DNA of 64,000 nt, taken from the NCBI GenBank assembly GCA_032358255.1, contig JAULBX010027385.1, forward strand, positions 62,001 through 126,000, read 5' to 3'. This document shows, piece by piece, positions 12,331 through 61,800 of the stretch. Within the stretch, counting starts at the first letter, position 1. Each line of letters begins with the position of its first letter. The stretch comes from Heterotrichella gracilis (taxonomy: Eukaryota > Sar > Xanthophyceae > Tribonematales > Xanthonemataceae). The position numbers and the translations under genes were made by a program. The notes beneath the pieces were generated by a model. That model was not told the DNA's origin and made no database searches. It worked only from the letters and a program-made list of their open reading frames with translations.

Positions 12331-15300
12331 CTACTTCTTGAAGAACATGTTGATCTTGGGCTGGTTGCTGGCGGCCTTGCCCTGCAGAGGTCATGTGGTT
12401 GCGGGTCACATGGGGTGCACTGCCTCACCAAGGGATGAAGCTTGTATGGGCACATGAGCGATAAAATGGCGATAAAATGGCATGGGCACAGGACCAAGGG
12501 GGAAAGGAGGGGTGTTTGCTGAGGCGCAATGCCGCGCGGTTAGGCATACAGTGGCAACAGTGGCCGTTAGCTTTCATTCACCATGATTGTGCATGACCAG
12601 TGCAGCCATCCCCCATGCTGCATGCGAATGCCCAGACAGCTGAAACCCTCGCGAGCTGCCACAACCCAGCTAGGGTTCAGACCTTCCCTCTCCCTCACCT
12701 TGCCACTGCCCTTCTTTGATGCTGCAGCCGCCGGCGCCGCCTTGACTGCAGGTCTGCTGCTAGCCGCTGGGCGTGCTGCCGCGGGAGCCTTTTCGGGTGG
12801 GGGACCCTCATTCTCCTTCCCATTCCCATTTGCATTTGCGTCTCCCCCTTGCTCGCCAGGTGGCGGCGCCCCAGCCTCCCCATCCCCCTCCACCTCCTCC
12901 TCCACCACCTCCGTCACCTCCTCCCCCTTCTCGTTGTAGTAGGTGTTCAAAACCTTGCGGGTGGCCTTGCCTGCAGGCGGGGGACAGTTCAGCCGGCGGT
13001 GGGCGGTATGGGGCAGTGGGGTGGGTGCTGCCCTATTGCGCATCATCGGATTCTTGCACCACCCAACCAGTCTGTTTCCAAGGCAGCATGTTTGCACCAT
13101 AGAGAATGCTGCCGGCGGATGTGCTAAGAGTACATATGATGTCAGGCATGAGGTGGGGTACATGGTGGCCAACAGGCACTGTGCACATGACGCCTGGCAC
13201 GCCCAGTTAACAGCTGAGTGCTTGCAGTGGGTGCCGGGCGGCAGTGCCAACTACATTCCCATTCCATTGCAGTCAAGCTGGCTGGAGCGTATCAGGGCAA
13301 GCAGAGCGTGCATGTTGCCCCACCTTGCTTGCATGCGCCTCCCTTGCCTCACGCGCATTGCCCCACCTTGCTTGCACGCTGTTTAGGGTGTAGAGTCCAG
13401 GTTAGGGTTTAGGGTGCACTACCCACCTTTCTGTGCAGCAGGGCCATCCTTGAACTTCAAAAGCTGCTTGGGAGCCGGCGCAGGCTCCTCCACCACCTCC
13501 TCCCCTCCCTCCTCCTCATCTGATACCACCCGCTGCGCCTTGGCCGCTGCAGCCTTAGGCTTGCGTCCCCGTTTCGCCGGCTTGAGCTTGCCCCCCTGCT
13601 TGTCCCCCTGGCTGGGCTCCTCCCCTGCTCCATCGCTATCATCCATCCTTGCCAGCTGGCGCTTGGCCCGCGCCTTGGCCTTGACAGCTGGCATGGGTGA
13701 GTCGAAATCCTCGTCATCGTCATCACCCGCTGCCACCTTGGCCCGCTTGGTGCGCCCTGGGGCCACAAGTTGGAAGCATCTGTTAGTGAATGATGCAATG
13801 TAATACACGCGTTCCGGCAATACACCCAAGATTCGCAGTCACCCTTGTACCTTAAAGTCGTCACAATATACTACTACTAATAAGAATAGATAATAACCTG
13901 CAGCTCGCCTTCCCTCTCATGGCTACTCTCTTCCATGCCCTCCCTCAATACTCTCCTTCCCCACATCCTGAAACCCTAACCCAAACCCCACACTGCCCAT
14001 ACAGTTGGCCTGCAGCTCCCCTTCACTCTCGTCGCTACTCTCCGCCATGGCCTCCCTCGATACCCTCCTTTCCCAAATCCTCAAACCCTAACCCAAACCC
14101 ACACTGCCCGTACCGTTGGCCTGCAGCTCCCCTTCACTCTCGTCGCTACTCTCCTCCATGGCAGCGGCAGCAGCAGCCCTCAAAGCCCCCTCAGCATCCC
14201 CTGCAGGGGCCACCTCCACCTCTACCGGCGCAGGGGCAGCCACAGGCTCCACCTTTTTCTTGGCAGGAGGGGCCTTGCTCCACATGCTGGCAAGGCTGCC
14301 CTTCCCCTTCTCCTTCCCCTTCCCCTGGCCCTGCTTGAATACTGTTCCCCCCTTGGCGCCCTTGCTGCCGCCAGCCACAGTGCTGGCCTCAGGCGCTTGA
14401 GATGGCTCCGCCTTTTGGCTGGGGCTGTCGCTACCCTTGAGGGTTTCAGGGGCTGTGGGTGCGCCTGCTGCGGGGTCGACAGCTGGCGGCGCCTGGTTGG
14501 CTGCGGGGGCGCCAGCTGGCAGTGCTTTGCTGGTTGTGGGGGCGGCCTTGGCGGTGGGTGCGGGGGGCTGTGCGGTGGGTGGGGGCCGTCGGGAGGAGGC
14601 GGGGTCGCGCACCGCCGCTTCGCACCTGGGGTGTGCGGTAGGGTGTTGTCAGGGGGTGGTGGTGGTGGTGACGAGGTGGTGGTAGTGGTGGTGGTGCAAG
14701 CCAGGCGAGGGTCCTTCGAACGGTTGAGTGAATGGAATCCAACCACTTCATTTAATTTCATCAAGAGATAGATAACATTCTGTACTAAGCACCTCTGTGC
14801 ACATTATTGTAAATTATTCATGCATATAAAGTTAAATTCTGGCAACATTGAGTTGCTATTTGTTAGAAAAACCCACGAAAAGGTAGGGAATGACTCATGA
14901 GCCAACAGAGCTATCCCCACCAATGATTGCCTGCCTGGCAGAAGCGACGCGTAGGCATCCCTGGGATTGGCGTTGCACCTGGCAACCCCCACAAATGTTC
15001 CCCCGCCCTGTGGATCAACTCCCAAATCCCCCCCCCACCCACCTGATGCTGCCCAGCGCTTGGTCCGTCATGGGATTTGCCCCATTCCCGTCAGGCGACT
15101 GCAGCAGCTGCGCAAAGAGGCGTTCCGTCTGCAGCAGCTCAGTGGCTGCCAGCTCAGCAGGGTCCTGCACAAGGGTGTAGGGTTTAGTCAGGGGAGGCAC
15201 GAGAGGATGCAACCAAGAGGAGGAAGCAGATCTGGGCTGTGGCTGCCAGCTCAGCAGGGTCCTCAGGAGTATTTAGGGTTTTTGTATAGGATTTAGGGCT

Positions 15301-16658
15301 TAGGTCAGGGAAGGTGTGAGAGCATGGGACCATATGGGGGGAGGCAGCGCAAGCAGGAGGGAAGCGCTGTGTGTGTGTGTGTGGCAGTGCACAAGCATCA
15401 CACCCCCTAGCCTATCTCCACCCACCCACCTTGGGCTGTGCGGGCTGCACGCTGTACACATGCACGCAGGTCTTCTCCCTCAGCTTGGCGGTGGCCTGCG
15501 CCAGCTTCTCCCCAGGTACCAGCGCCACCACGTGCTTGGAACCCTCCCCTAGGGTCCAGCCCGACACCAGGTAGGTCGCCTTGACTGTGTGCGCGTGCTG
15601 CTCGTGGAACTGGAACAGCACCAGCTTGGCGGTGTCGTAGGGCAGGGACAGCTCACGTGCCAGCCACTTGTAGCTCACCACCTGGGGTTAGTAATAGGAT
15701 GTACTTAGTTGCTGTATAATGATATAACCTATTGCTATGTTATGGTATATTTAAGTGGCGGTGTCATAGGGCAGGCACAGCTCACGTGCCAGCCATTTGT
15801 AGCTCACCACCTGGGGTAAATGATAATGATACATTTAATTGCTGTTGTATGATGTACTAACTTGCTATATTATACTTTACTTGACTGGCCAGGCAGTGGT
15901 TTAGGGGAGGGACAGCTCGCGTGCCAGCCATTTGTAGCTCACCACCTGGGGTAAATGATAATGATATAATTAAATTGCTATATTGTGAAGTATTTGACTG
16001 CGAGTGTCGTAGGGCAGGGACAGCTTGCGTGCCAGCCATTTGTAGCTCACCACCTGGGGTAAACAAAGAGCATTTTAATTGCTATATTCTGGCTATATCA
16101 TCAAATTTTCAGTTGCTATCTTATGGCAGTGAGGGACACCTTGCGCGCAAGCCGCTCGTAGCTCACAACCTGGGGTTAATCTGATATCTTTAATTGCGGG
16201 GGTGTAGGGGTGTGTGGGGTTGTGTGTGGTGAGGTATGAGGTTGTGGGGGGGTGGGGATGATTGGTGGGGTGTGTGTTGGGGTATTGAGGTTGTGCGGGG
16301 AAAGGATTTGGTTGTGCGGGGGCGGTGAGGCACTGATGTTGTGCAGGGGAAGGGTTCGGGTGTGCGGAGGTGCTGAGCACAGCAGGTCTGGCCTGGCTCG
16401 CAGTGGTGATGTAGAGAGCAGACCGAGAGAAAAGTGCAGCACGGCTGCAACTCTGTTCGCAGCAGGCACGGATGCGGGGCCTGGAAACTGTATTGTAATG
16501 GAAAGTGTACTCCTGCTGTGCTATTAGAAAGCCTGGAAACAGCATAGTTTTGCAAACAAGTGTGGAACCCTAGCCAAGGGCGCACCACCCACCTGTAGCT
16601 CTTCCCCCACCCAAGTTGCCACCTGTTCAAGGGCTGAGGCCAGCGCGTCTGACGCCAT
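12331..16658 (-). CDS. POLD3: DNA polymerase delta subunit 3 (POLD3/Cdc27/p66)
   Basis: Seven exons join in phase to 534 residues: 16593-16658, 15430-15681, 15043-15164, 14114-14625, 13427-13756, 12699-12970 and 12331-12381. POLD3 is the accessory subunit that couples the replicative polymerase delta to PCNA in the nucleus. The N-terminal winged-helix region opens with VVSYKWLARELSL at about residue 23 and contains VKATYLVSG and VHVYSVQPAQPK, matching the family. A long low-complexity Ala/Pro/Lys/acidic middle follows. The last 16 residues hold a textbook PIP box, QPKINMFF (residues 525-532), directly before the stop. The ATG at 16658 gives a 22-residue lead, normal for the family. Introns 1, 2 and 4 carry repeated copies of neighbouring exon edges. 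The gene diverges from the gene starting at 17406. Confidence 0.94.
13897..14113 (-). repeat. Two echoes of the POLD3 exon 4 end plus donor (111-bp period)
   Basis: The true exon 4 end and the start of intron 4 (about 14113-14155 into lower coordinates) are repeated twice more downstream on the minus strand, starting near 14009 and 13897. This gives three head-to-tail copies at 111-112-bp spacing. Each copy includes the exon sequence coding for the SSDESEGELQAN region, the donor area and telomere-like filler (CCCTAACCC). Copies diverge by several substitutions, and the distal copy is the most diverged. Confidence 0.88.
14655..14697. repeat. GTG/CAC triplet repeat in POLD3 intron 3
   Basis: An imperfect run of GTG triplets lies in the intron just upstream of POLD3 exon 4. 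Confidence 0.85.
15238..15335 (-). repeat. Echo of the POLD3 exon 3 start in intron 2
   Basis: The exon 3 acceptor edge (GGCTGCCAGCTCAGCAGGGT, true copy from 15144) recurs at 15241, 97 bp away. The flanking intron with TTTAGGG-type motifs is also duplicated (true copy 15171-15230, echo about 15270-15335). Confidence 0.85.
15756..16180 (-). repeat. Four echoes of the POLD3 exon 2 start in intron 1
   Basis: The acceptor and first ~55 nt of exon 2 (true copy about 15626-15690) recur in intron 1 near 15756-15820, 15901-15955, 15999-16065 and 16121-16180, at spacings of roughly 110-135 bp. Three of the four copies keep the acceptor context and the start of the frame reading VVSYKWLA; the most distal is visibly more diverged. 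AT-rich filler rather than CCCTAAA separates these copies. Confidence 0.9.
16195..16375. repeat. G/T-rich low-complexity tract in POLD3 intron 1
   Basis: The plus strand is a run of GGGTGTG/GGTTGTG-type sequence (C/A-rich on the coding strand) with several G-runs. Confidence 0.75.
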
Positions 16659-17405
16659 TACTGCAGAGTCCAGACGGCAATGGTGGATGAAGTCAACGTT
16701 GGTGCGGGTTCAGAGGTCCTATTACACGCTCACGAAGCGCTGGGAGCAGACGACAGCTGCCCGGGTTGTATATATGCATGCATGTGAAGCAAGCTGTGCC
16801 TAGCTCTTTCCCGCTCCTTGTACTGCTAGGTACACCATTAACGAAGCAGGAGGGTCAATATGCTGTGTCTGAGGTACTGGAAGTAAACAAGTCGCAAAGG
16901 ATCAAGTGCTGTCAAACTTTGCCAGTACCAATCTACGACAAAAGCTTGCACCACAGATTGCTTGTTTCTCGATGAACAACCGCTCCATAGTATAGTGTCA
17001 CAAAGTTGACAAGCACTAACGCAGCAACACGATATATGTTACAAGATTTTCGAATGATTTTCAAACTTGACGAGGCCGCGCACAGCGGTGGCTATGCGGA
17101 CGGTGGCCTATGCATGCATTTCATAACCGTGCGTCAAATGCATTGGTTTGTGCAACCTTATCTGCTCGCCGAGTACACTTGCCGCACCTGTTCCATAGCA
17201 GCGCCGCTGCGACTGTTATTCTGGCGTCCTTGCCCACTCACCAACACCGAGTCGACCACCTAGAACGCCATCGACCGCTGTCTCAGACCGCGTCTCCAGC
17301 TGTATTGATAACCCCACAGTCCTGTGTCGGAACCAGCTTTGAGGTTACTTGGAAGTGGCGCGCCTGCAGCCTTCTTGAACTCGCACCCTCTGGTACTGCC
17401 CACCC
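16659..17405. promoter_or_regulatory. Divergent promoter region, POLD3 / 17406 gene
   Basis: This 0.75-kb stretch separates two divergently oriented start codons and contains no supported exon. By position it should hold both promoters. No specific element is claimed. Confidence 0.45.
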
Positions 17406-20359
17406 ATGGCCCCCATGGCAAAGTCATACACCCCTCTGCGCCTGCAGGGGCAGACCAGGCCAGTGCTGGGAGCAGGTAAGCAACCGAGTGTCTAAGGATG
17501 TCAGACAGATGTCAGGACATGGGCTTATGCCTGCCAGAAGTAAGGGTTACTGCCACCATGCCCAGGCTGCATGACCCCGCTTGGTCAATATGCTTGTGCC
17601 ACAGTTCAGTGCGGGGTGCTGCCTTGCAATATCGATACTCTGCACAGTGTGAAACCGACAGTCGCTCTTCAGTGCGTGGCCCTCTTGCCATCCCCACTGC
17701 GTCCAATGCCGGTGCAAGCTTTTGGGGTGACCACTTTAGGCTTTAGGGTTTTGCCGCACCCACCGCGCCCCACCTCACAGGCCTGCTGCGGGTGCCTGGT
17801 GGCCCCTCAACCCCCGCCAGTGCAGCGGTCCCAGGGACCAGTGGTGCAGCCGCCGCACCTTCAACATCCACACCTGTTCCCTCAAAGATGCAGGTGCGCG
17901 CTGAGGGTGCTAAACCCTAAAACCCTAAACCTCGCTCCTTCATCAGTCAGCGCCAGCCTAGCTTTTCAGCATATGGGTATGGGCAATGGTGGCCCTACAC
18001 CACCAATATAGGTGGTGTGAGGCGGCATACCTACATTAGGGTTTAGGTTTTTGGTCTACAAAGGTCAGAGCCCCTTCACTTTGGGATCATGCACTGCTTG
18101 TGGGCGGCAAGGGACCGGCAACCATGGCGCAAGCTTTGCTCGCCATCGCAAAAGAGGTACCTGACTGTTACCCTGCATGCAGAGCCAGGGTGTGAGCCCA
18201 TCACCCGGCGCTGCCACCCCTTCGACGTGGCATGTCACGCCATCGCAGCCCGCAGCGGACCGTACTGGAAACGGTGGGTGTTGGGTGGGCTGCTAGTTCC
18301 CTGCAATTTTGCCTACCTTGTGAATGCATAAAAGAGGAAATTAGAAATCATCCTCAAAATTGCGAGCTGAGTGTGTTCTCCCTGCAATGCTTTGCCTTGC
18401 TCAAAATTGTCTTCTATGCAACTGCTGCCAGCACAGGGGTTACATTTGCAAATGACATCTTCGATTTAGTACCCCACACCAGGAAGCACGGCATCAGCTG
18501 GAAATATGGCATATCAGCTCTGAAAACCTTTCATGTGATTGTATTTACAGCAAATGCGTATCCATGTGGGTGAATGCTGTCGGCATTGGCAACAATCCGA
18601 GCGTAACCATGCCTTACGCACAGCGCCTTACACACAGCGCCTTACGCACAGCGCCGCCCCCCTTGTTGCATGCACCCCAAACCCTAAAACCCTAAACCCT
18701 AAATCATTCTCGCAGGTGCCGAGTCCAGCCACGAGGAGATCCTGCACCCTAAACCCTGAACCCTAAACCTAGACCTTGAAACCCTACACCACCCCCGCAG
18801 GCGCCGAGTCCAGCCACGAGGAGATCCTGCACCCTGCACCCTGCACCCTAAAATCCTAAACCCTAAACAACCCCTGCAGGTGCCGATTCCAGCCACGAGG
18901 AGATCCTGCGCCCTAAACCCTGAACCCTAAACCCTAGACCTTAAAACCCTAAACCACCCCCGCAGGCGCCGAGTCCAGCCACGATGAGATCCTGCGCCTG
19001 AAGAGGGAGCTGGGCATGATGATGCCTGGCATCATCTCGCCGCCACCTGTCGGCCCACCAGCGGGCCTGGACCTGCCTGCACGCCCCAAGGCAGGCGCCC
19101 TGTCCCGGGCCGATGTTGGGGAGCGCTTGAAGGAGCTGGAGCGGCTGCAAGGGGATGCTGCGCAGCTGGTGGAGCGGCAGGCAAGTTACAATAAGAATCA
19201 CTTGAAAGGCTTGAAAGTGTTATGTTGACTTGAGCCAAACCATTAGGCAGTTGCATACATGGTCATCATACGTACATTACATACAGTCCAGGGGTGCAGC
19301 CAGAATGTCAGGCAGCGTAGCAAATGTGTGCCAAGCAGCAAATGTGCAAATCCCGCCATTGCATGGCCAATGTGGGGGTGATAACTTGCAGGCACCTTGG
19401 CCATGCAATGGCGGGATTTGCATGGCACGCATTTGCGAGGATGCATCGGCGGCGCGTGAAGTGCTTGTATGCTGTAGGCCTTGCTGTCACAGATATTTCG
19501 TGTACACTTCAAGGCATGTCGCATGTGGTGACGAGGATCGGGGTGGCTGCTATCGCTCAGCCACTGATCGGTGACGATTGAAGTAATAATTCAATTGATG
19601 CGCCTGCAGGGCTCCCCGGCTGCATCACGAGGGAGCCAAGCGCGGGAACCCCCGGGTGAGTCTTCTAGTACAGAGTGCTGAGAGCAGCTGTTTCCTGCTC
19701 CAGTGGAAAAGATCGATGCCTCATCGCCCCATGCGATGTGATGTGGCTTCCTGTCTTGCTCACACGCCTGCCTCCTCACACATGCACAGCACATGGTCAG
19801 ATATGCACACAGCTGCCACCCCCATTGCAATGAGGGGGCCGGTGAGTGGCCGGACTGGGGGCGGTCCGCATGGGCTGCTGCATGCTGGAGGTTGCACAAG
19901 GTGCATGCAGGACTGCTGCGCGCATTTGTCTTGATTGCAACAATGGTGCATGCCCAAGGTTACACAAGGTGCACTCAGGACAGCTGCGTGCACTTGCCTT
20001 ATCGGAGCATGGGTGCGTGCTGAAGGTTGCACAAGGTGCATTCAGGCTGTTGCATACGTTTGTCTTTGATCGGCGCATGGATGCTTGGCGCAGGCGCTGG
20101 TATCAAGGACAGCGACCAAGCCGCATCGGCAACGCCACCCATGGCCAACAAGCACCACCCCAGCAGCAGCACCAAGGGGGTTATGGTAGTGACAAGTGGC
20201 GCAACGGGGAGGTCAGCGGGGAGGCCCGGCCAGGGTGCTGACAAAAGCGCTGGCCAAGGGAGGCGTACCAGTGTGGCGCACCAACAGAACCTGCAGCGCT
20301 TTGCACAGCTGGCAGCGCTGCAGCAGCAAGGGGCGTGGCTGGCTGCGGGGCGGGCGTGA
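17406..20359 (+). CDS. Unrecognised low-complexity protein, about 8 exons
   Basis: I do not recognise this protein. Exons 17406-17475, 17781-17893, 18064-18156, 18183-18273, 18966-19180, 19610-19655 and 19801-19841 join in phase. A terminal exon at 20094-20359 ends in a stop but needs phase 1, whereas 19841 ends in phase 0. A 34-nt exon at 19979-20012 inside a tandem repeat would reconcile them; this is unproven. The start ATG at 17406 opens MAPMAKSYTPLRL. The product, about 300 residues, is rich in Ser, Pro, Ala and Gly and mostly looks disordered. It has one helical charged segment (VGERLKELERLQGDAAQLVE) and a Gln-rich helical C-terminus (HQQNLQRFAQLAALQQQ). Intron 5 has a GC donor (GCAAGT at 19181) and contains a large hairpin. 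Intron 4 carries echoes of the exon 5 edge. Confidence 0.65.
18706..18912 (+). repeat. Three echoes of an exon start with CCCTAAA filler
   Basis: The true exon 5 edge at 18959-18997 (CGCAG acceptor, then GCGCCGAGTCCAGCCACGA) is preceded by three near-copies whose CAG ends fall at 18715, 18800 and 18879, giving 79-86-bp spacing. CCCTAAA/CCCTGAA repeats lie between them. All three keep the AG acceptor and the first ~30 nt of the exon. Confidence 0.93.
19319..19436. other. Long hairpin in an intron
   Basis: A perfect 25-bp inverted repeat (19345-19369 with 19398-19422) surrounds a 28-nt loop. A second arm pair (19319-19332 with 19423-19436, one mismatch) extends the stem beyond a one-sided bulge. 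It lies in the GC-AG intron 5 of the 17406 gene. A small-RNA precursor or a miniature inverted-repeat insertion are both possible. Confidence 0.8.
19890..20092 (+). repeat. Three tandem ~67-bp units before the last exon
   Basis: Units start near 19890, 19958 and 20025, each opening with GGTTGCACAAGGTGCA or a close variant. The middle unit is open in the frame needed to join its neighbours and carries usable AG and GT sites. Confidence 0.85.
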
Positions 20360-20704
20360 CAGGCTGCATTGGTGGGGCGTCAGGGTTACTGCGCCACGGG
20401 GTAACATACTTGACAACAGCTGAGCAGACATATTATTGTGTTGGTGTGGTGTTGTGTGTGTGGTGCGAGAGGGCCCTGGCTATCTTCCTGTTGGGCTGGA
20501 GTGGCCCAGCTCAGGGTTTAGGGTTAGGGGTAGGGTTTAGGGTGAGTGGCACTGCCCAGGCTGGAGCTGTGCTGTCAGGTTGTCATGCAGAGGTGGTGTG
20601 TGTGCAGAGCATCGATGTTTGATGGTTTAAACCCTCCCTTTTTTGTCATTTCACTCCTGTAACCAGAGCTCTTCATGCATGGGTCCCTGGGTGCAGCCTG
20701 CAGC
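20360..20704. other. 3' flank of the 17406 gene
   Basis: No gene was seen. The stretch contains a TTTAGGGTTAGGGGTAGGG telomere-like run near 20516-20541. Confidence 0.5.
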
Positions 20705-23423
20705 CTCGGGATAGAACTGCCGTGGCTCCGTCTCGTTTCACGTCGTAACTTACTCCCCCCGTACACGTGGCGGACTCTGGGAAAACACGGGAATGTCGTC
20801 GTATTTTTGCGTTGAATAAACCACTAAAACACCGCCGTTCCGCCGTTGACTTGCAGTTATCACCAACTGCTTTATCAGGAACACCTGTTCCTTTGCAAAC
20901 TAGTTAGCATCGAGCATCGCGCAGCGATGGGCGTTTGACGACAGACTGGCATGCGGTCTAAAACCGACGGTAAGCTGCACTGCACACCAGGGTCGTGCAC
21001 ACACACGCAGGAAGGTACGTTCCAACCGCCAGTTACAACTGCCCGTTAACTCTAAGTATACACAGTGCTCAAAGCGGAGCTTGAGGATGGCCTGTGTGAC
21101 CTTCTGAGCTAAAGGTCTCTCTGTTGTCCACACTTGTGCCCACCTGCTCTGCTGCTGCTGGGACATGAGCCTGTTTGACCCTTAGTCAACGTCAACAGGA
21201 TAAAACGGTTAAAGTGCCACTCTCATTTGAAGGCACGTAGAGGGTGCATCTGTCAAGTAGATGTAGTGCAAGTGGTCTCCCTTGGGTAGCGAACGTTCTG
21301 ATAGTGTGGAAATGTGAAGTCCACTTATCAACACCCTCCACACCGCCTCCCTCTCTCCTTCCCACCCTAAACCCTACATACGCCAACTGACACCTTGCGG
21401 ACTCAAGCTAACATAAATAGTTCTAACCTAAAGGTACATGCATCGCAACAATACAGCCTGACAAATTTAGTAAACAGTCTTGTATATGGGGCGCCCTGAC
21501 TTCTTTGTACCACCAACCCATCCTAGCCTAAGGAGTCCTGCTTGGGGAGGTCAGTCCCTTGCTTTTCTTACCCCTTTGCCCACGCTTTCAAGGCATAGGG
21601 TAAACGGGCTGTGTGGTCCAGGCCCTGTGGATGCATGCTTTTAGGGTTGGTTTAGGGTTTAAAGGTTGCATCAGCAGCGGGTTATTCAGTAGTACTTCGG
21701 GTTTTTAGAGTGATATCAAGCACGGTATGCACAGCGTAGAAGCAGGGTTTGTGGGGTATGCCTTGGCAGGTTACCCTGGAGGGTATGTTGGGTGACCCAC
21801 AGTGGGGTGCATCCGGGTAAAGGTCCGCATCCAGCAGGTGTTATGCACGCTTTCAAGGGGTTTGCAGCGGGCGAGAGCGGGATCTGCAGCGTGTGTAGGC
21901 GCATGCACCTGCAATACAGGCATATACCACCCTACATCCCACCCACCCAACTTACCCTAAGCACCTGCCTCGCAGTGTTGTTTGCCCAGCAAATCACTAT
22001 TAAGCTGGTGTGCAGCGGAATCTCCAGTCTAGGAGATTACATATAGGTGCAAGTAGTCAATGGGCAGGATAGCTATACAACCTTGGCTACTCACAGGGAT
22101 GTAAATGGTTACCGTAAATCCCGGAGGTTTATCACAAGCGGTATACCAGCAGCTTGTTAGGGTATCTGCCACAATACCCATAACTTTTTACCTTTGTTCC
22201 TGGAAAAATACAGTTTGTGTTGTTATGCACACTGTTACAACAAGGTGTAACAAGGTATGGTGCATGATGAGTGAAGTACAACTTACACCTTGAACATTGG
22301 GTTTTGCAAGTGCAAAGGTGAAGTTGCTGTTACATTGGGGTGCTTCATGTAAACGTTAGGGTGCAGAGTGATAGCAAGAGTAGAGGTTGACTGCTGTGCA
22401 CCAGCAAAGCGCCTCTGAGACACCAAGTCCCTGTCACATGCCATGGTATCACATTGGCAAACAAATGGCTAGATTTCCAATTTACAGAATGAGGGGCGAG
22501 GATTTATCGCTTGTCGCATAACCCAACTTGATCCATACCATACAAACCTTTATGAACAGGCAACGCTACACTCAAGCAGGCAAGGCAACCCATACAGCCA
22601 GTCTCATATCCCATCCATTGTGCTAACTACACACCAAGCAACAAGAATCGTCTACCTCGCCAACCTTTTGAGTTATAGGACTGCACAACTGACAGCTGAT
22701 CTTGCTGCAATGTTGGAAAGCATCCAAGTAGCCTCTGTGAGAATAGAGGTGGAGCAGAGCGCTGCACTGACAGTGTAGCCTCTGTGAGAATAGAGGTGGA
22801 GCAGAGTGCTGCACTGACAGTGTAGCACGTTGGCCACTAGGTATCAGTGACTCACAACAACCCATCTCACCCTCAACTTCGCTTCCTTGTAACTCGTGAA
22901 AGACTTGGGAGTTCATAGTACCATTATATGCCCCAAACCGTTATTTGTTTGACGTTGACCAAGGGTCAAACAGGCTCATGTCCCTGGCTCTGTGTTGGCA
23001 CAAGTGTGGACAACAGAGAGCCCGCAGCTCAGCAGGTTACAAGGGTTGCACCCACTAACCCGTTTAAGCACTGTGCATACATGCGTTAGCGGTTGGAACA
23101 TACCTTCCTGCGTATGTGGGCGCGTGTGTGTGCACGACCCTGGTGTGCAGTGCAGCTTACCGTCGGTTTTAGACCGCATGCCAGTCTGTCGTCAAACGCC
23201 CATCGCTGCGCGATGCTCGATGCTAACTAGTTTGCAAAGGAACAGGTGTTCCTGATAAAGCAGTTGGTGATAACTGCAAGTCAACGGCGGAACGGCGGTG
23301 TTTTAGTGGTTTATTCAACGCAAAAATACGAAGACATTCCCGTGTTGTCCCAGAGTCCGCCACGTGTATGGGGAGTAAGTTACGACGTGAAACGAGACGG
23401 AGCCACGGCAGTTCTATCCCGAG
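20705..23423. mobile_element. Non-autonomous foldback-type DNA element with ~0.48-kb terminal inverted repeats
   Basis: The segment 20705-21196 is repeated in reverse complement at 22949-23423. The outer ~310 bp are nearly identical, while the inner part matches only in blocks. The outer ends read CTCGGGATAGAACTGCC inward from each side. The 3-bp AGC on both flanks could be a target-site duplication, but it is too short to be sure. The ~1.75-kb interior has no long reading frame and no recognisable transposase, so movement would need a helper. High arm identity suggests recent insertion or gene conversion between the arms. Long arms with a non-coding core resemble foldback or Mutator-like non-autonomous elements. 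The family is not assigned. Confidence 0.85.
22728..22825. repeat. 47-bp tandem duplication inside the foldback element
   Basis: Two nearly identical 47-bp units (GTAGCCTCTGTGAGAATAGA at the start) lie in the interior just before the right arm. Confidence 0.9.
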
Positions 23424-24051: not shown

Positions 24052-27000
24052 ATGCCTAGCAAGAGCACAAGGCGCGCCGTCGCCACTCGCGCAGGTAACG
24101 CACGCGATACGCGCTCGTGTCTCCTTATCTATGGCGTAACGTTTCTCGCTGCCAGTGGGATCGCACGTGTAACCTGTGATCGGTGCCCCGTGGGAGCCAT
24201 GTGGGAGCCCGTAAGCACTGATATCAATGCTAGTTTCGCCAACAGAGCTGTGGATCAGTAGCGCATGCCTTGTTACGTATGCGGATTGTGTTGTTTTCCA
24301 CCTATGCAACGGGAAACGGGTGCCTCGATGGGCATATGCATGAGGTGCATCACCATGACTCACGTGCTCGCCTTGTTCGATCTTGATGCCCAGTTACCAA
24401 CACCAGACCTGCCTTCCTCACCTCTGCCCCTACTGATCCCTTGGTCTGTTTTGCAGTTGTGGACCGCACCACGATGAAGGAGGTTGCCACCCCCAAGCAG
24501 CTGGGATACACCATGCCTGGTGCGTACCCTGGTGCTGTGTGTCCCTCTATGTGGCTTTGCTTGTGACTTCTTTTGTGCCTTCCAATCAGCGTTCTGATGG
24601 AAGGTCAGCAGAGCTAGGAGGCTAGCAGCAGTGGGTGTTGCTAGTTTGTGATCTGTACCTTCAGAGCCACGCTGGCGGATAACCCTAGGGTCTAGCCCCA
24701 AACCTAATGCCTTCCTAGACCCAAAACCCAATGCCTGGCTGGGATTGTCGTTGCAGTACACTTAACCCAACCCTCCCCGATGCCAACTCCTTCAACTCCC
24801 AACCTCCTCCCTTCCCGCTCATGGGTCCGCCCTCCCCCCCTCTCGCCTTGCCACCCCCCTCCCTCCCACTCAACCCCCCCCCACCCCCTCCCCCCCGCAG
24901 GCGAGTTCGAGCCCCACGCGGGCTGCTGGATGGGCTTCCCCTACGACGGCAACATCTGGCGCGAGGGCGCCAAGCCCGCGCAGGCCCAGTACGCCGGCGT
25001 GGCCCGCGCCATCTCCGAGTTTGAGCCGGTCACCATGTGGACCGACCCCGAGGCCATGGCGGTGGCCACCGAGATGTTCAAGTCCGACGACAACGTGTTT
25101 GTGAAGGAGCTGGAGATCAACGACGGGTGGACGCGCGACTGGGGCCCAACCGTGCGTGTCCTGCCCAACCCTAAACCCTAAATTGCAAAAGTATGAACCC
25201 TAGGCAGAATCCTACGTGCTGATGGATGTTGATGCGCCTCTGGGTATGGTTGCTGTGGATTCCATCATGCCCGTGAGATGTGCTGTGCTGCCTGATGGAT
25301 CATTTGCTGGGTCGGTAGCTATGGCATGCTCTCATACCTCGTCCCCACTGACAAGGGCTGGCTGGCTTAATTAAAATGCTTCCCTGATAACAGGAATTTC
25401 TCTGAATGAATCACTACCTCCCCCGGCCCACCTCACACCCCCCGCTTCCACCCTCTGCAGTGCGTCGCCAAGACTGAGAACGGGAAGCGGATCGTGGCGG
25501 GCGTGCACTGGGACTATGACTGCTATGGCGGCTTTCTAAAGAAGGAGCTTGGCATGCCCACCATGGTGCCCGACTGGACCAAGGACTACAACGCGGGGCG
25601 CAAGATCCTGGAGCTGGAGGGCCTGCCCGTGTTTGAGTCCCCGCTGCACCTGGAGGGCGGGTCCATCCACTCTGATGGCGAGGGGTGCGTGGGGCGGCGG
25701 TGGGGGGTTATGTGGGGGGTGCTTGTTTGCGCAGTGGGGTGGATGTCACATGGAGGGGTGAGGGTGGTGGTGCAATCCATGTGTGCTGATGCAGATGCCG
25801 GGAGGCACCATGTGGGCCTGTACATGGTGGCACACATGGATTGTTTGGATTAATCGATGCATGCAGTCTCTTTCCCTGTGCAGTGCCCCATGTCTTCCAT
25901 GTCGGCGCACCTCCACTTGGTATCTTGGGGGCAGGGTTTCCTATTACGGTACCCTTTACCTCCCCTTTCTACAACTTCCCCTCCCCTTGCGCATCACCCC
26001 AGCTGGTGACCGAGCAGTGCCTGCCACAGTTCCTCACTTGTGCCGTGGGGCTAAGCTTTGCAATTACCCAATTACCCTAAACCATACCTCTCTGGAGACC
26101 TCCCGCTCCTCTTGTGCAGCACCCTTATGGTGATCAAGCGGTGCCTGCCGCACATCCACACCTGGAACTAGGGTTTCTAATTACCCTAAATCTCCCCTCT
26201 CTGACCCCCTCCCTCCCCCTTGCGCAGCACCCTTGTGGTGACCGAGCAGTGCCTGCTGCACGAGTCGCGGAACCCTAGCCTAGGGCGCGAGGGCATCGAG
26301 AACATGCTGAAGGAGTACCTGGGCCTGGAGAAGGTCATCTGGCTGTGGAGGGGCATCGCGGGGGATGATGCCATCACCAACGGCCACGTGGACAACTTCT
26401 GCTGCTTCGTGCACCCGGGCAAGGTGCTGCTGGCGTGGTCGGACGACGAGTTTGATGTGCAGGTGCGATATGGGTGTAGGGCGGGTGTAATGAGGATAAT
26501 TGAAATTTGCTGAGCAGCAGGTGGGGATGTGCAGCAGAGTTTGATGTGCAGGTGCGACAGGGGTGTGGGCTTCAGCCGGTGTGGTGGGGGTGTGACGGGT
26601 GGGTGGGGGTTCGGGCGTAGGCAGGCCGTGCCAACTGGTGATGTTTAATGCACCCATACGGGGTTCCTGGCCTGCTTGGGCGGGGATTGTACTGGGCAAG
26701 TGCAAGGGTTTGGGGTTTGCCGGGTGGGGAATTTTGGAAGTTGCGTGAGAGGGAAGCACGGAGGGAGTTTTGCTCATGTAGGGTGTGGCAGGTACTGCCG
26801 TGCAGCTAAGCTATAGGACGTTGAGCTGGGTGGGAGGCCCGTCGGCTGCTGCAGCACGTATTCAACTCCACGTCGCCTTTGTCAGTATTGGTAGATTTCG
26901 GCACTGCAATGGATGGCGTCAGCAGGCAGCCTTACACAAAGCGCGCTGGCTTCAACACATGCGTAAACAACTGGCCTACACTCCCACCATATCACAGCAT

Positions 27001-27874
27001 TGCGTGCAATTGGTATCAACGTATTGTTGCCTACACCAGTACTTGCTGGTGGCCGCCCTTTCCAGCCCCTCACCCACGGTTTGGATCTCCCCCCCAAATG
27101 CAGTACGAGCATTCTGCACGAAAAACCCTTATCCCTGAACCCTACCCCCCTTCCTGCAGTACGAGCACTCTGCGCGCGCCTACGAGATCCTGTCCAACAC
27201 CACCGATGCCAAGGGGAGGAAGCTCGAGATCGTGAAGATCCCCACACCGCCACCACTGTTCCGCACCCACAAGGAGTCGGGTGGCCTGGCCCCAGGCTAC
27301 ATCGAGAAGGGGTACATCCCCAGGGTGCCAGGGGAGCGCCTGCCAGCCACCTACATCAACCACTACCAGGTGGGTAAACCCCATGGGCTGTAGGGGCTGA
27401 GTGGTTTGAGAGGCGCCTGCGAGTACCTGGCTTGTCCCCTGTGGGCGTCCCCTTTCTTCCCATGCACTTTTACCCCATGCGCTGTGGGGCCTGAGTGGTT
27501 TCAGAGGCGCAGCAGCTGGGGTGCTCCACCTGTGTGGCAACCCTAGTGCCGATGGCATAGTAGAGGGTGCTGTGTGCTGATCCTTTTTGGGAGGACCCCT
27601 TGCAATCAATACCCTAAACCCTACCCAACCACCCTGCAATCAATACTCTAAACCCTACCCACCCACCCCGCAGGCCAACGGCCCCGGCGGCAAGGGCGTG
27701 GTCATGTCCCGCTTCGGCGGCGCAGCCGTGCGCACCGACGAGCTTGCCTTTGAGGCCCTGTCCAAGGCCTATGGCCCGGAGTGGAAGGTTGTGCAGGTGG
27801 ACAACTCGCGCGATGTGCTGCTCAACGCAGGCAACGTGCACTGCATCACGCAGCAACACGTGGCCGCATACTAG
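24052..27874 (+). CDS. AIH: Agmatine deiminase (agmatine iminohydrolase), plant type
   Basis: Seven exons join in phase to 408 residues: 24052-24094, 24457-24519, 24901-25151, 25461-25684, 26228-26462, 27160-27369 and 27674-27874. The enzyme converts agmatine to N-carbamoylputrescine and ammonia, the second step of the arginine decarboxylase route to putrescine. Family hallmarks are MPGEFEPHAGCWMGFPYDG near residue 36, the RDWGP block (RDTGP in most relatives) at about 114-118, LHLEGGSIHSDGEG, the NGHVDNF block with His247 and Asp249, and the catalytic-cysteine block AGNVHCITQQ near the C-terminus (Cys399). The usual GGGN before the cysteine reads NAGN here, a mild departure. The ATG at 24052 gives a short basic lead (MPSKSTRRAVATRAV) that could be an organelle-targeting extension; this is weak. 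Introns 4, 5 and 6 bear exon-edge echoes. Confidence 0.95.
25986..26155 (+). repeat. Two echoes of the agmatine deiminase exon 5 start
   Basis: The true edge at 26221-26262 (GCGCAG then CACCCTTGTGGTGACCGAGC) is preceded by degenerate copies near 25986-26031 and 26110-26155, about 110 bp apart. TTACCCTAA filler separates them. Both retain an AG acceptor and the stretch coding for VTEQCLP/LL. Confidence 0.9.
26534..26566 (+). repeat. Echo of the agmatine deiminase exon 5 end plus donor
   Basis: GAGTTTGATGTGCAG followed by GTGCGA, the true exon 5 end and donor at 26448-26468, recurs about 90 bp downstream in intron 5. The following GGGTGTGGG-type sequence also recurs. Confidence 0.9.
27098..27120 (+). 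repeat. Echo of the agmatine deiminase exon 6 start
   Basis: CAGTACGAGCATTCTGCACG at 27101 copies the true acceptor and exon start CAGTACGAGCACTCTGCGCG at 27157, 56 bp downstream. CCCTTATCCCTGAACCCTA lies between them. Confidence 0.92.
27601..27665 (+). repeat. ~31-bp tandem duplication with CCCTAAA motif before exon 7
   Basis: TGCAATCAATACCCTAAACC and its near-copy TGCAATCAATACTCTAAACC follow each other immediately upstream of the exon 7 acceptor of agmatine deiminase. Confidence 0.9.
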
Positions 27875-46867: not shown

Positions 46868-48848
46868 GGGCCCTAAACCCTACGCAATGGGGCCATAAAC
46901 ACGAAGCAGTGGGGGCCATAAACCCTCAGCAATGCAGCATCTCATGGTTTAGGGAGGGCCTTAAACCCTGAACTGTGCGAGCCTTTTCGCCCATTCTCCT
47001 ACGCATATTTTCCTCTTGTTCTCCCGCTGCATGCTGTCTGCAACCATTTGAGATAGCTGTGATTATTGGCATTTGGCTGGTTGGGTGCGGGTGTTGCCGT
47101 CAATATACACACCATCAATATGCACACAATGATTTATACCCTAGGGTGTCTAGCGTGACCCAAGGCAGGATTTCAAGGATTCTTAGGAATCCAAACTGTT
47201 ATCAAGTTGTCTGTTTTATCATTCGCTTGTGATGCATACCAGTGCACCCACATATTGGGCTGTGTTTTCATTAGCAATGACATGCCGCCTTTCGTTGGTA
47301 TTACAATTTATCATGCTTTATAAATCTAGCAGCCGCAGTCCGTACAAAGTGGGCGTTGTCCACGTTCCATGTGTGCGCCACGACAATACACATACACAGT
47401 TGCCAGTATGGAGGAGTATGCAAACACCGGTACCCCACACTCTCATACCATCACTGGGACTGTCTTAGGGTTCAACGTCGACGTGTCTGTCTCGATGTTT
47501 TTGTTTCTGTGCGTTTATTTAGCTGGCCAATGCGGCCCACCTACGATTGCAATCTAGGTATGTGCACACCTGTGGTGGGTACATCATTATGCTGTGTTAT
47601 CATTGCGCTCAAGTGGGGCGCACATCGCCTGCTTTCCCCGGCCCCACATGTCATGCAATCTCTCTTATGGATTATGGCGCCAGGTTCAAACTTTGTGCTG
47701 TAGCCTACTGGAGGTGCAGCCCTGCCCTGCTGGCCAAATGCCGCACGTCAAATAGCGGGTACCTGTGTGCTCATGATGGACAAACATGCTGGCAATTATT
47801 TGCATTGTAAGCACATTATTGGTGCTTAGTTAATGGCCACCGGTGGCAACAGGTTTTGTCTGATGCCATCGGAATACAGTTTTGTAACTTGGAAGGAATG
47901 TAACCTCGTTGTCCTTGCAAACTGTGAGGGACTTTTGTGGTTAACCAATTAATATTTATTGCACCAACATGTAATGCAACGCTGATGTGGTATACCGCTG
48001 GAAATCCCTGGCAGGCAGTGCCAGGAGGGGCGCGGAAGCGGCACGATGATCCAATCATGACACAGTGCCACTGTACGTGTGTGTGATAGTATCAACTTGC
48101 GGCGCAGGTATTACACCTTTGCATACACATTTGGGTGCACAACATGTTATGTACCATGTGCCATGACGTACATGCGCCATGACGTGAACCTAATCTAGCT
48201 GGTAATTCCGCTGCACATTGCTGTGCCAGGATCCAACAATTCTGATTGTGGCCAGCTGAGGTAAATCACATTAAAAAACCTGCAGCAACATTGGATTCCC
48301 CAGGGCCCGTCCACATCCTTTCAACACAGCAACTGTCGATGCTCCATCTTATGAATCCATTATCAATGCCACAACTACATGCAGGCGCCATGCTGGGTGA
48401 TGCCAAGAAAGGAACGCTCAGAGCTGGAGTTGTAGGGCCCATGGCTTGCACCAGGGGCACCCAAACAAGTTGGTCGCCAGTCCAGTGCGGGTGTACCCAC
48501 CCAATTAAGCCACGTGTGCTGTCCCCCTGGGCTGTGCTGTGAAGCCTCTGCTGTCAATCCCCACCACCCCCACACAACTTCACAGCAGGGGATCCCATAG
48601 CACGCCAATGGCAGCGCCGCGGGCTGGCGCCTTGACGCCAGTCACACACATGCCCATTGCCGGTTTAAGCACCTGCCCAACGCAGGTTGACCACATGTTC
48701 ATCACAGGCGCGCTGTGAGGATCTTCATTGCTGATCATAGTCTGATCATAGGCTGATCACAGGCGCGCTGTGAAGATTTTCACCGCAGTCTGATCTTAGT
48801 CTGATCATAGCCTGATCATAGCCTGGTCTTCGCCTGATCTTAGCCTGA
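46868..48848. other. Intergenic region between RWP-RK2 and the PPIL1-type gene
   Basis: No coding exon was seen over about 2 kb. A duplicated GCCATGACGT (48160 and 48176) is the only small motif noted. The right end, from about 48700, carries echoes of the cyclophilin stop region. Confidence 0.5.
48700..48845 (-). repeat. Echoes of the cyclophilin stop-codon region in its 3' flank
   Basis: The end of the last coding exon with its stop (true about 48845-48885, GATCACAGGCGTGCTGTGAG on the plus strand) recurs near 48705-48740 and 48757-48790. Repeats of CTGATCATAG/CTGATCTTAG fill the space up to the true stop. Confidence 0.88.
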
Positions 48849-50563
48849 TCACAGGCGTGCTGTGAGGATCTTCACGGCTGTCGTGGGCCTGTCGTTTGCG
48901 TCCGTCTGCACGTTCCCCATGCGCTTGACCACCTCCATGCCGCCGCACACGCGCCCAAAGATGGTGTGCTTGCCGTCCAACCAGGGGGTGGGACCTAGCG
49001 TGATGAAAAACTGCAAGAGGGGAGGGACAGGTGGGGTGGTGCATGCTCGACCATGGTCTGGCCTTCGCAAGAGTGCCGCATACTGCGGGTGTCATCCCGA
49101 TTACTTAAGTCTGGGTGACATCTTGAACAGCAACGTCCTTCATGCAACACAAGGCCACTTGTCATGGACTGGAAACTTGTTTGGAACTCTGCTTCAAGCG
49201 GCTTGTGTCACCCCAGCCTGCAGTGCTTGTGTCAGCGTCAGCCACCTTGTCCCCTACCCACGTGCCCCACTGTTCACGTGCCTCAATGCCCATTGAACTG
49301 TGCCCACCGCACCACCCCCACTGCCTATTCAGTTACCACGACCAGTGCTTTCTCATAACCCGCACTCCGCTCACCTGGCTACCATTCTGCTTCAAGCCAG
49401 TTGTTTTACCCTAAACCCTAAAGCATAGAACCTAAACCCTGAACCCTAAACAGCTCACCTGGCTGCCGTTTGTGTTTGGTCCAGAGTTGGCCGATTGTGT
49501 CACCCTAAACCCTGAACCCTAAACCCTGAACCCTAAACAGCTCACCTGGCTGCCATTTGTGTTTGGTCCAGAGTTGGCCAAGTGTATCACCCTAAACCCT
49601 GAACCCTAAACCCTAAACCCTAAACAGCTCACCTGGCTTCCATTTGTGTTTGGTCCAGAGTTGGCCGAGTGTGTCACCCTAAATCCTGAACCCTAAACCC
49701 TAAACTCTAAACAGCTCACCTGGCTGCCATTTGTGTTTGGTCCAGAGTTGGCCGAGCTCAGGATGCCTGCCCCGGTGTGTTTGAGCTCCTTGGTGATCTC
49801 ATCCTCGAACTTGCTCCCGTAGATGGACTCCCCTCCCCTGCCCGTGCCTGTGGGGTCGCCCCCTTGGATCATGAAGTCCCGGATGATTCGGTGGAACTGC
49901 GGTGAACAGGAGGGGTCACAGCGTGAGGCAAGGCTTAGGGTTCAGGAGTTAAGGTTTAGAGTTTAGGTTTTGGAACTGCGGTGAAGCAGGAGGCGTCACA
50001 GCGTGAGGAGGGGTCATGGGTCGCTGGTGGCGGCATTGAATGGTCCCACAACCCCCAAGGGGTTGAAAAAGCCAACGTCAAGTGTCTGCAGGAACTAATT
50101 TCTTGGCCACACAGTCTAACTTAAGAGCACGTGCTTATTGTCTGCAACCAAGCCTGATGCACATTAACCCATGCCTGGACAAACAGCCCCTTGTTGCAAC
50201 CTTTGCGGCATGGGCTCCCTGGCTTGTAGATGTTTCTGACAAGCTCAGTGATGTACACTATAATTTCGTCTGGTATGGGCATAACAAAATTGTCCAGGGG
50301 AGATTAGGAAGATACCGCGCAAGTTTTGGCAGGCGATTGGTAGGTCTACACGTCACAATGCATGCATATAGGATGGGACTTGCATGCAATTGGGTTTGCG
50401 ACTAAAACCATGCGCTTAATCATCTCACCACGACGTTATCGTAGTATCCCCGTTTTGCAAGCTCCATGAAGTTTTTGCAGGTCTTGGGCGCGTGCCGCGT
50501 GTACAGCTCCACCGTGATGGTGCCCATAGACGTTTTCAGCTGCACCTGAGGAGCCCCCTGCAT
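48849..50563 (-). CDS. PPIL1: Peptidyl-prolyl cis-trans isomerase, PPIL1 / CYP18-2 type
   Basis: Three exons join in phase to 157 residues: 50429-50563, 49720-49896 and 48849-49010. PPIL1 is a small single-domain cyclophilin of the activated spliceosome. The order and spacing match: [20 protein letters not shown], then [14 protein letters not shown], then [20 protein letters not shown] (catalytic Arg in FHR), then [20 protein letters not shown], then [20 protein letters not shown], then [16 protein letters not shown]. The ATG at 50563 gives a short lead (MQGAPQVQ) close to that of other PPIL1 proteins. Exon-like sequence just upstream (about 50640-50921) may be 5' UTR exons or a longer N-terminus. 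Intron 2 holds the clearest exon-edge array in the window. The gene diverges from NAF1. Confidence 0.95.
49367..49712 (-). repeat. ~87-bp satellite made of exon 2-end echoes plus telomere-like filler
   Basis: The true exon 2 end and donor (49713-49755 on the plus strand) is followed in intron 2 by four copies starting near 49625, 49538, 49451 and 49367, at 84-88-bp spacing. Each unit is ~45 bp of exon end plus donor (CTCACCTGGCTGCCATTTGT) and ~40 bp of CCCTAAACCCTGAACCCTAAA-type sequence. The three nearest copies are over 90% alike by eye. The outermost is strongly diverged. Confidence 0.95.
49921..50010 (-). repeat. Echo of the cyclophilin exon 2 start in intron 1
   Basis: GGAACTGCGGTGAACAGGAG at the true exon edge (49893 on) recurs near 49973, 81 bp away, together with GTCACAGCGTGAGG. 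TTAGGGTTCAGGAGTTAAGG-type filler lies between. Confidence 0.9.
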
Positions 50564-58899: not shown

Positions 58900-61800
58900 T
58901 CAGCGGCACAGGAGCGTAGCAAGTAGCGAGTCGAGCTCCAGGTCATCGTGCGTGAAGTTCCCCCCTTGCCCCTCCCCGGTGATGGCCACTGCTGCCAGCA
59001 GCGCAGCCTCGGGCGGTCCCTGGGACTGGCGCATGTGGTCCTCCTGGTACCACACCTCGGGGATGCCCATGTGGTGGCTGCCGCCAGCGCTGGGCATCAG
59101 ACCCTGCAGTGGGGTAGTCATAAGCGATTGGAACATAATCGGTTGAGGGCTTTAAGGAAACCTGGGCAAACTCAGACCACACAGAGCGCGGGCAGCGCCG
59201 CATCCCACACGCACATGCCTTTGTTTCTGCACACCATAAATCTGCACACGTACCTCGCAAACAACCCAGGAGTACAAACATGGTGGTGGTTGCACAGGAG
59301 TGGTCCTACACGCAAACCCGATGAGGGCCTGTACTTACCCCCCCACCTGCAGCGACTCCTCCCAACACCCTAAACCCTAACCCGGAAACCGCACCCACCG
59401 GTAGCGACTGCGCCTCCTGCTTGCCGCCCCACCCATGCTGCGACTGGTTCACCATCCCCGCGCCGCCATGCTGGCCATACTCCCCTGGCCGGAACCCCCC
59501 GCCGCCCCCACCACCCCCCTGCTGCTGGTGGTGCATGCCGTGCATGGCCGCGGCAAATAGGGAGGGCCCGGAGGTGGGCGAGGGGAAGCCGAATGAGGCC
59601 GCCACTGGCGTGCTCCCCTGGCTGCTCCAGGTGGGGTTCCAGGAGTTGATTGCTGCGCTAATGGCTGCCGCGCTGTCGCCGGAGCTGGACCAGGAGCCAG
59701 CCCCGTCAAAGGGGTGCGCAAAGTCGTGGGAGTCTCTGCAAGATAATTATATTAAAAAAAAACTTTCAGGTTTTTTATGTTACATCCCTGGGGGAGGGGC
59801 GCAGGGGTGTGAGGGTGTGACAAGGGTGGCTGCCATGCGGTGTGGTGAGGGGGGGTAGGTATAGTGTGGCATAAAGACAGTGTTTGCTTGCCTACAAACT
59901 GCACACCAAATTCCACTACATCAATTGGCCAACCCATTGGGGCTGGTTCCCTTGCTATGGCGCTTCCACGACCAAAGTGATCAGCCTATCATTTGCAATG
60001 CTCTGTGCGCACCTGCCATGACCCCCCTGCCCCATGCCGGGGGCCAGCATATGGTGGTACGCCTCCTGGAGGTGGGGGTGGTGCTGGTGGTGCTGGTGCT
60101 GGTGGGGGGGCGGGTGGGGGGGCATATCCAGTGGGGAGCAGTGGGCCAGGTGTGGGTGGGGACTGGCCAGGCTGCAGGCAGGGGATGATGCAAGTAAAAA
60201 CAAAAGGGGGGGGGATCAAGAAAACAGGGGTCATGTTGGGTGCCGCGTTGACCCTAGTATAGATCATGGTGTGGATCAGTGCAGCACAAGGGCTTATGTG
60301 TGTAGGCGTAGGGCATGCCACCAGCCATGCATCATTGGTTTTGTAGGGTTCACATCACGCCACCACCCTATTTCTTGATCGCTTTCTTTAGGTGTCCAAG
60401 AAACCCTGGTGGGGATGCCGGGAGGGATCCCATGTAGCACACAGACACTCTGTGTAGGGATTAGGGTGCAGCACCAACCACTCATCGTGCGTTTTAAAGG
60501 TTTAAATCGCGGCACCATCCACGCCACATACCTGCCAGCTGGCGTGCTGCCCATGGGCGAGAAGGGCACCGCCCCCTGCTCCTCCACCCACCCCACCTTC
60601 ACCTGCGGCAGCAGCGCGCCGGGATGCTGCGCCATCCCCGCGTCGCTGCTGAAAAAGCTGCTGTTGTTGTCGGCGGCGTGTGTCTGCTGCTGCTGCTGGG
60701 GCACGGCCCGCGGGTCGGGTGAGGGCATGCACTGGTCCATGATAAGGGTGGTGGCTGCCTCGACATCCCCCTGGCAGTCAATCACCACGCGCTCCACACA
60801 GCCTGGACCAGGGAGACATGTTTAGGGTTTTAGGGGGGTGAGCGCACCCTAGGCAAGGGTTCCCCCAGGATGGTGCACTTGCAGGGCAGAAGGAACACAG
60901 CAACCAATCATCCACATGCACACAGACCCACTCGCACATGCATAAACATCCACCATCCACCGGCAATGCACAGCACACAACGCATCATGCCATGCCCCAT
61001 AACCCTCAACTCAAACCCTAAACCCTTACTCGTACCCGGCGGCAGGCCCAGCATGGCCTGCACCTCCTGCACAACGTATCACACCGCCCCCAAAGCCCTA
61101 AATTAAAACCCTAAACCCGTACCTGGCGGCAGGCCCAGCGTGGCCTGCACCTCCTGCATGCGCACCACCTCAGCACCCACGTCGAATGCGGAGGGGGCTG
61201 GGGAGGGGAGGAGGGGGGCGCCACCACCGCCCTGCCTCTCAAGCTCCAGCAGCCACTCCACAGCCGCCTCAAGGTTGGCGCCATGGCGGTGGACTGAAGG
61301 GGGGGCAGGGGGAAGGGTGACACGTTAGCATCGACAGGGGAGGGGCAGATGGGAAATCCGATGTATCACAAACCCAATAGGGAAAGAGTTGTTGATACAG
61401 ACATTCGAGCAGGTATTGACAGATATGTCACAACGAAACGGGTCATGTTTGGGGCTCAGCAGAGTACCCACCCCACCCCACTTGCAATATGCCACAGTGA
61501 CCCTGCTGTGGGCCCAGCTGGAACCCCAGCTGCTGGTTCCATTTCAATTTGCTGCAATCCCCTCAGCACCCCCTATCCTACACCACCACCCCCACCCCCA
61601 TCCCCCCACCTGCCGCCCCACAGCGCCACTCCTGGAAGCCCAGCCCCTGCAGCTGCTCCACCATTGCCTGCGCCTTGTGCGCCACCATCAGCTGCAGGCA
61701 CAGGCTGAAGGCATCCTGGTCGGGGGAGGAGGAGGGGGAGGAGGCGGGCGGGGGGGCGGAGTGGGGGGCCTCAAAACTGAGCACCTCTGCAGGAGAGGGC

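Follow-up and report, generated by a model that had tools for sequence, protein, structure and literature searches.

Duplications that run across an exon edge have been described as single cases. In the potato RdRp gene, one such event copied a 3' splice site along with some of the exon, and created an intron (PMC4974935), and direct repeats of 4–30 bp near intron edges, one per intron end, have been read as insertion traces (PMC11782384). In mouse cells, in which breaks were made with a nickase, fill-in of 43–49-nt 3' overhangs by CST-Pol alpha-primase, CST being a telomere factor, followed by end-joining, gives near full-length tandem duplications (PMC8355091). Introners are frequent in aquatic lineages, with a preference for linker DNA (PMC9860276), interstitial telomeric sequences are short telomere-type repeats inside chromosomes (PMC6410037), and in green algae the ancestral telomere repeat is TTTAGGG (PMC8226300). 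Here we analyze a 64-kb stretch of the xanthophyte Heterotrichella gracilis (contig JAULBX010027385.1, positions 62,001 to 126,000; hereafter the window, numbered from its first base), in which introns carry copies of the adjoining exon edge. We define such an echo as a duplication family whose source holds a splice edge and whose copy lies in that edge's own intron. In our searches of the Creative Commons-licensed PMC literature we found single cases and related repeats, and no description of this pattern. Unlike in the potato gene, tens of cases are present here, at both types of splice site, and the introns are lengthened only; unlike the intron-border repeats as described there, the exon edge is paired with a copy within the intron and not end to end.

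Echoes are real, and the pattern recurs beyond the window. The sample comprised the window plus a 200-kb block of contig C2 (264 kb), to which 50 kb of contig C46 were added, giving 314 kb on three contigs, or 0.46% of the 68.5-Mb, 903-contig assembly; values refer to 314 kb unless 264 kb is stated. Genes were predicted with a two-strand exon-intron model, self-trained on the window and the C2 block (C46 was added later) without transcripts, which yielded 79 genes, 567 exons and, counting genes with a score of 15 or more, 477 introns. Each of the nine spliced predicted proteins or pieces submitted to Pfam gave matches, and the domain types among the predicted genes include RWP-RK, water-dikinase, Sec23/24 and diaminopimelate-decarboxylase types; taken by themselves, these domains and the TTTAGGG-type motifs would suggest a green alga. 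In a batch of five proteins, the submitted parts held 18 echo junctions, 7 of which lay within a best domain stretch, one of these 7 at the stretch edge, as judged from match coordinates. A local repeat scan for direct pairs (score at least 17, 25–400 nt apart) returned 166 pairs in 264 kb, versus one in total over three dinucleotide shuffles, and 192 pairs with C46 included.

These pairs group into 103 families in 264 kb and 118 in 314 kb. Echoes form the largest class, with 53 families, followed by families with both copies in predicted coding sequence (CDS; 23), intron-only families (22), a coding copy not classed as an edge plus an intron copy (7), intergenic (4), CDS/intergenic (4), mixed noncoding (2) and ambiguous ones (3). 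Duplications across exon edges are recurrent, as had been proposed from the window by a first-pass annotation of its sequence. Echoes are found at 32 donors and 21 acceptors, in 48 of the 477 predicted introns (about one in ten), and all sit in 23 of the 63 multi-exon genes. The counts of echo and intron-only families per block (window, 8 and 6; C2, 39 and 15; C46, 6 and 1) indicate that the window is not exceptional in this respect. Since the model sometimes calls echoes as exons, as in the agmatine deiminase gene, the echo count is too low. Intergenic duplications are scarce, with 4 families in ~67 kb versus 22 intron-only families in ~144 kb; within the 264 kb, 4 intergenic families compare with 18 expected from random shifts.

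Edge-spanning duplications exceed what random placement combined with detection bias would give, in agreement with the earlier proposal of repeated duplication across splice junctions. In a forward simulation, random duplications were placed on 269 introns free of duplications. The simulation purged exon-internal events, held exons under constraint and allowed for filler, neutral drift and indels, and its events were run through the same detection in three length/age settings of 900 events each. The edge-spanning share of detected events was 39%, 31% and 49%, versus 53 of the 75 intron-linked families observed (71%; p 1.9e-8 against 0.386 and 8.9e-5 against 0.486), and the observed share was stable when flanking exons were required to have a coding log-odds score of at least 10 (39/52). 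These values hint at a ~1.5- to 2.3-fold excess at coding edges. Among intron-only families, 10/22 end within 12 nt of a junction, versus 11–14% in simulation, the 12-nt criterion having been chosen post hoc. The age-matched edge fraction was 0.54–0.61, versus 0.28–0.29 expected for uniform segments (divergence cut-offs 0.05–0.2; p 0.04 at the strictest).

The earlier view that the effect is specific to splice junctions is not supported. Echoes occur at CDS termini at the same rate as at splice edges (6/128 versus 53/954, p = 0.84), and the effect therefore concerns coding edges and not splicing; of the six terminal cases, the PPIL1 stop codon has homology support and the remaining five are gene-finder predictions. 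The pattern is best described as duplications across coding edges.

A passive origin, in which duplications arise at one rate everywhere and edge copies are over-seen through their conserved exon partner and the purging of exon-internal events, is possible, if doubtful. The equal behavior of CDS termini is in its favor, as are the lack of any sign of selection on echo splice sites and the greater difficulty of detecting intron-only pairs, in which both copies drift. A simple random-shift null, moreover, already predicts 52% echo pairs, versus 49/72 (68%) seen in 264 kb (p 0.003); this null allowed exon-internal sources that are impossible for a contiguous duplication, and was superseded by the uniform-segment expectation and the forward simulation. 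Against a passive origin stand the simulation itself, which falls short of the observed share with purging and detection bias included, the age-matched fractions, and the crowding near junctions of telomere-like clusters, which have no conserved partner.

The copies are nearly always direct: the 192 direct local pairs compare with 8 inverted ones (5 separate, 3 hairpins), and one shuffle gave 1 inverted pair. Their spacing of ~55–135 nt, as first reported, holds for neighboring copies in the window, and the two members of an echo pair lie a median of 117 nt apart (264 kb). The aligned exon part has a median of 37 nt (quartiles 31–55) and the aligned intron part one of 18 nt at donors and 21 nt at acceptors. 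Exon parts of 29–42 nt make up 47% of the 53 echoes versus 16–31% in simulation, which is weak evidence, as this bin was picked after seeing the data. Copies differ by 0–30% in the exon part, and the filler between them varies between cases. Exon identity reaches 0.92 or more in 17 echo families, of which 9 have copies that abut or nearly abut and 8 show an unalignable spacer of 14–115 nt; spacers in old echoes may be diverged units, which is unlikely in young ones.

Two inverted structures were also noted in the window. The first, at 19345–19422, is a near-perfect hairpin with 30-nt arms and an 18-nt loop, in the predicted intron after exon 18966–19180. The second, at 20705–23423, is a large inverted repeat with arms of ~300 nt (20705–21008 and 23122–23423; 99–100% complementary), ~2.1 kb between them and shorter inner matches; it looks like a transposon-type element, and a search of the assembly with 20741–21080 returned the two arms only and no further copy.

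Telomere-like motifs accompany some of the echoes. The heptamer CCCT[AG]AA/TT[CT]AGGG occurs in 16/53 echo spans versus 13% of control windows, each span being scored whole with respect to the duplication joint. At donors, the association of echo and heptamer has odds of 3.5 (p 0.008). The copies were first described as usually alternating with CCCTAAA filler, which is too strong: the filler of the POLD3 edge A15681 is AT-rich, and telomere-like filler is a minority feature, the heptamers themselves being enriched in echo spans and concentrated near junctions. CCCTAAA/TTTAGGG heptamers are ~3 times denser in introns than in intergenic DNA (1.02 versus 0.33/kb) and nearly absent from coding sequence, and three exact telomere-type units occur at 834 places in the whole assembly.

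Clusters of such motifs in introns peak 15–30 nt past donors (24 in both orientations, with 3.7 expected from block shuffles) and, on the C-rich strand, peak again 30–60 nt before acceptors (18 versus 5.0 expected; G-rich, 3 versus 1.2). In duplication-free introns, they reach 1.15/kb within 60 nt of a junction versus 0.44/kb beyond (p 2e-5); near CDS termini the trend is the same and not significant (5 in 8.4 kb versus 15 in 57 kb, p 0.17). As these clusters have no conserved partner, they offer an independent view of the crowding at junctions. Within 60 nt of acceptors, clusters with the C-rich strand outnumber the others 24 to 6, whereas both orientations are found near donors; the simplest account is that TTTAGGG would put an AG upstream of the acceptor, and we thus claim no telomerase polarity. 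The motifs resemble interstitial telomeric sequences, as outlined in PMC6410037, in being short telomere-type repeats within chromosomes, and differ from that outline in that they are short and degenerate, reach their highest density in introns close to coding edges and belong to only some of the duplicated units.

The observations establish direct local copies, with or without filler, that are neutral on the noncoding side and in excess at coding edges. They are probably best explained by frequent local tandem duplication through break repair, retained where harmless, with an excess at coding edges. A segment of ~30–100 nt would be copied once or a few times beside itself, nearly always head to tail, and the copies would abut directly or via unrelated filler, sometimes with telomere-like heptamers. 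A duplication inside an exon would usually break the gene and be lost unless the frame is kept; for a segment crossing a coding edge, the outermost copy would remain the working edge, and the others would land in the intron or flank, absent from the protein, and decay neutrally. Such copies could arise from a staggered break whose overhangs are filled on both sides, for instance by CST-Pol alpha-primase, and then sealed by end-joining, giving the order exon edge, filler, exon edge. This route fits the segment sizes, the direct orientation of the copies and their modest association with telomere-like motifs. The mouse duplications are likewise direct head-to-tail copies of tens of nucleotides (43–49-bp overhangs) and involve a telomere factor, as telomere-like motifs lie near the events here; they differ in stemming from nickase-made breaks, whereas the present ones are natural, old and often with filler.

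Breaks or repair may be commoner within a few tens of nucleotides of coding edges. Two candidates could account for the edge preference: breaks may be concentrated in the linkers that flank exon-sized nucleosomes, or GC-rich coding DNA (GC content 0.63 in coding DNA versus 0.51) may duplicate more often, with only edge-crossing and in-frame events surviving. Exon-internal pairs, which count in favor of the break-repair reading, are mostly in frame: in ten exons, 17/24 have a distance divisible by 3, where chance would give 8; pairs that share an exon are not independent. Two diverged tandem-repeat arrays, each within a single predicted exon, were noted on C2: at 127769–128453, 6/8 repeat distances are not divisible by 3, and at 136325–136711, 6/6 are.

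Several points weigh against the break-repair reading. The edge excess hinges on a simulation whose segment lengths, divergence and indel rates were assumed and whose settings were chosen by us, and more frequent duplication of GC-rich coding DNA, with selection against interior events, could be an alternative source of it. Purging is not strongly visible, as 20 families have both copies in CDS versus 26 expected by random shift (264 kb); this class is inflated by miscalled echo exons. The gene models are self-trained and without transcripts, and the clustering of the 53 families in 23 genes implies that they are not fully independent. The telomere-like heptamer is present in only 16 of the echo spans, its association at acceptors is not significant (4/21, odds 2.9, p 0.08), and the repair route, with its break, overhang and enzyme, is one that we infer. 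The further proposal that in this lineage coding edges, splice and non-splice alike, are break-repair hot spots, at which telomere-type machinery, through CST fill-in and at times telomere-like additions, copies a characteristic ~29–42 nt of exon with the edge and steadily lengthens introns with neutral copies, seems to us unlikely as it stands; if true, it would describe a mutational process that sets intron length.

A role of the copies as functional decoys or alternative exon edges, kept to regulate splicing, is improbable. Echoes mismatch the true exon at 85/744, 77/744 and 133/746 sites of codon positions 1, 2 and 3, respectively (0.114, 0.103 and 0.178; 53 families), and the surplus at position 3 reflects synonymous substitutions that the true exon has undergone. 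A GT or AG splice dinucleotide is still held by 40/49 echoes, which might speak for such a role, and this is near the 36.4 +/- 2.9 predicted from overall identity. The equal mismatches at positions 1 and 2, not those of evolving coding sequence, together with dinucleotide retention as expected, indicate that echoes are neither alternative exons nor visibly selected decoys, and functional decoys and duplicated exons were set aside. Echoes look neutral, and the true exon constrained, changing mainly at position 3.

Insertion of a mobile element or introner with long target-site duplications would produce a similar order of exon edge, filler and exon edge, namely an insert between direct repeats, and introners are abundant in aquatic lineages and favor linker DNA (PMC9860276). 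It is nevertheless not at all likely: the filler differs case by case, arrays of up to five copies misfit a single insertion, and a search of the assembly for dispersed copies of the POLD3 array (15627–16180) found none elsewhere, a narrow result from the one array tested. A dispersed element was set aside, with the matches of this array being local only.

Birth of new introns from tandem duplication of exon sequence (the Rogers model), with echoes as its traces, is highly improbable. Single cases are known, such as the potato one, and intron ends resemble each other slightly above shifted controls (12.1 versus 10.0 of 40 columns). Such a slight match would come from the common AG|G splice consensus; 0/477 introns had homologous ends separated by the length of the intron, and in the 40-column comparison 1/460 reached at least 26 matches, versus 0/2760 shifted controls. 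Intron birth is thus contradicted for detectable ages, and the claim that the duplications build introns did not hold up; existing introns were lengthened, those with echoes having a median of 378 versus 260 nt, longer partly by construction. Finally, tandem copies can be assembled wrongly, and an assembly artefact is hardly credible and was set aside, given exon parts that differ by 0–30%, distinct fillers, and 53 families on three contigs.

These results bear on two open questions, the source of intron sequence and the cause of intron growth. About 10% of predicted introns hold datable, apparently neutral copies beside a constrained original, and the rate, size and position of duplications can be counted genome-wide, which allows a test of whether breaks or repair favor coding edges. 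They also call for caution in annotation, where gene finders will mistake echoes for exons.

In the window, copies had been claimed at twelve exon edges in six genes, at both 5' and 3' splice sites and on both strands; all twelve are present, and the distribution over sites and strands is as described (Table 1). Eleven pass the local scan at a score of at least 17, and the twelfth, D45544, scores 15, a value reached by 0/1000 shuffles of the target. The automatic classifier, which combines gene models and rules, scores 8 of the 12 as echoes; it misses A26228, where the echoes were called as exons, D46482, where the aligned source stops 19 nt inside the exon, A49896, with 5 exon nucleotides aligned, and D45544, below threshold.

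Table 1. Copies of coding edges in the window. D, donor; A, acceptor; the number is that of the exon base adjoining the intron.
Edge	Positions	Strand	Copies
POLD3 donor D14114 (exon 14114–14625)	13897–14162	-	112-nt unit, 2.4 copies, the last holding the true exon end; exon identity 0.96
POLD3 acceptor A15164 (exon 15043–15164)	15142–15281	-	One echo in the intron, 97 nt away; exon part 23/23 identical
POLD3 acceptor A15681 (exon 15430–15681)	15627–16180	-	Four more copies at ~110–135-nt spacing; AT-rich filler
Gene at 17406, acceptor A18966 (exon 18966–19180)	18671–18998	+	Three echoes upstream; telomere-like filler
Agmatine deiminase acceptor A26228 (exon 26228–26462)	25950–26261	+	Two upstream echoes, miscalled as exons by the gene finder
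Agmatine deiminase donor D26462	26448–26569	+	Single downstream echo at 89 nt; exon part (15 nt) identical
Agmatine deiminase acceptor A27160 (exon 27160–27369)	27089–27176	+	One echo 56 nt upstream
RWP-RK2 donor D45544	45519–45627	+	Weak echo ~84 nt downstream
RWP-RK2 donor D46482	46436–46543	+	One echo 80 nt downstream
PPIL1 stop codon (non-splice coding edge)	48688–48882	-	Copies of CDS end and 3' flank
PPIL1 donor D49720	49356–49756	-	Four 87-nt units including the true edge; unit contains telomere-like repeats
PPIL1 acceptor A49896	49892–50008	-	Single intronic echo, 79 nt upstream
UBA gene donor D61123 (exon 61123–61293)	60976–61158	-	One echo 94 nt away

The PPIL1 D49720 array holds one older degenerate copy in addition (49356–49386). 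Pfam match coordinates span echo junctions in two of the spliced products, namely agmatine deiminase (PAD_porph, residues 52–422, 4.8e-98) and the PPIL1 cyclophilin (Pro_isomerase, 7–155, 1.2e-56). The POLD3 piece carries a CDC27 domain and the RWP-RK2 piece an RWP-RK domain; a homology search with one RWP-RK2 exon as query gave no match. Two adjacent predicted genes at 35507–46867, of which the second was submitted to Pfam, are alike in build and have RWP-RK-like C-termini, and are apparently the product of an old tandem gene duplication.

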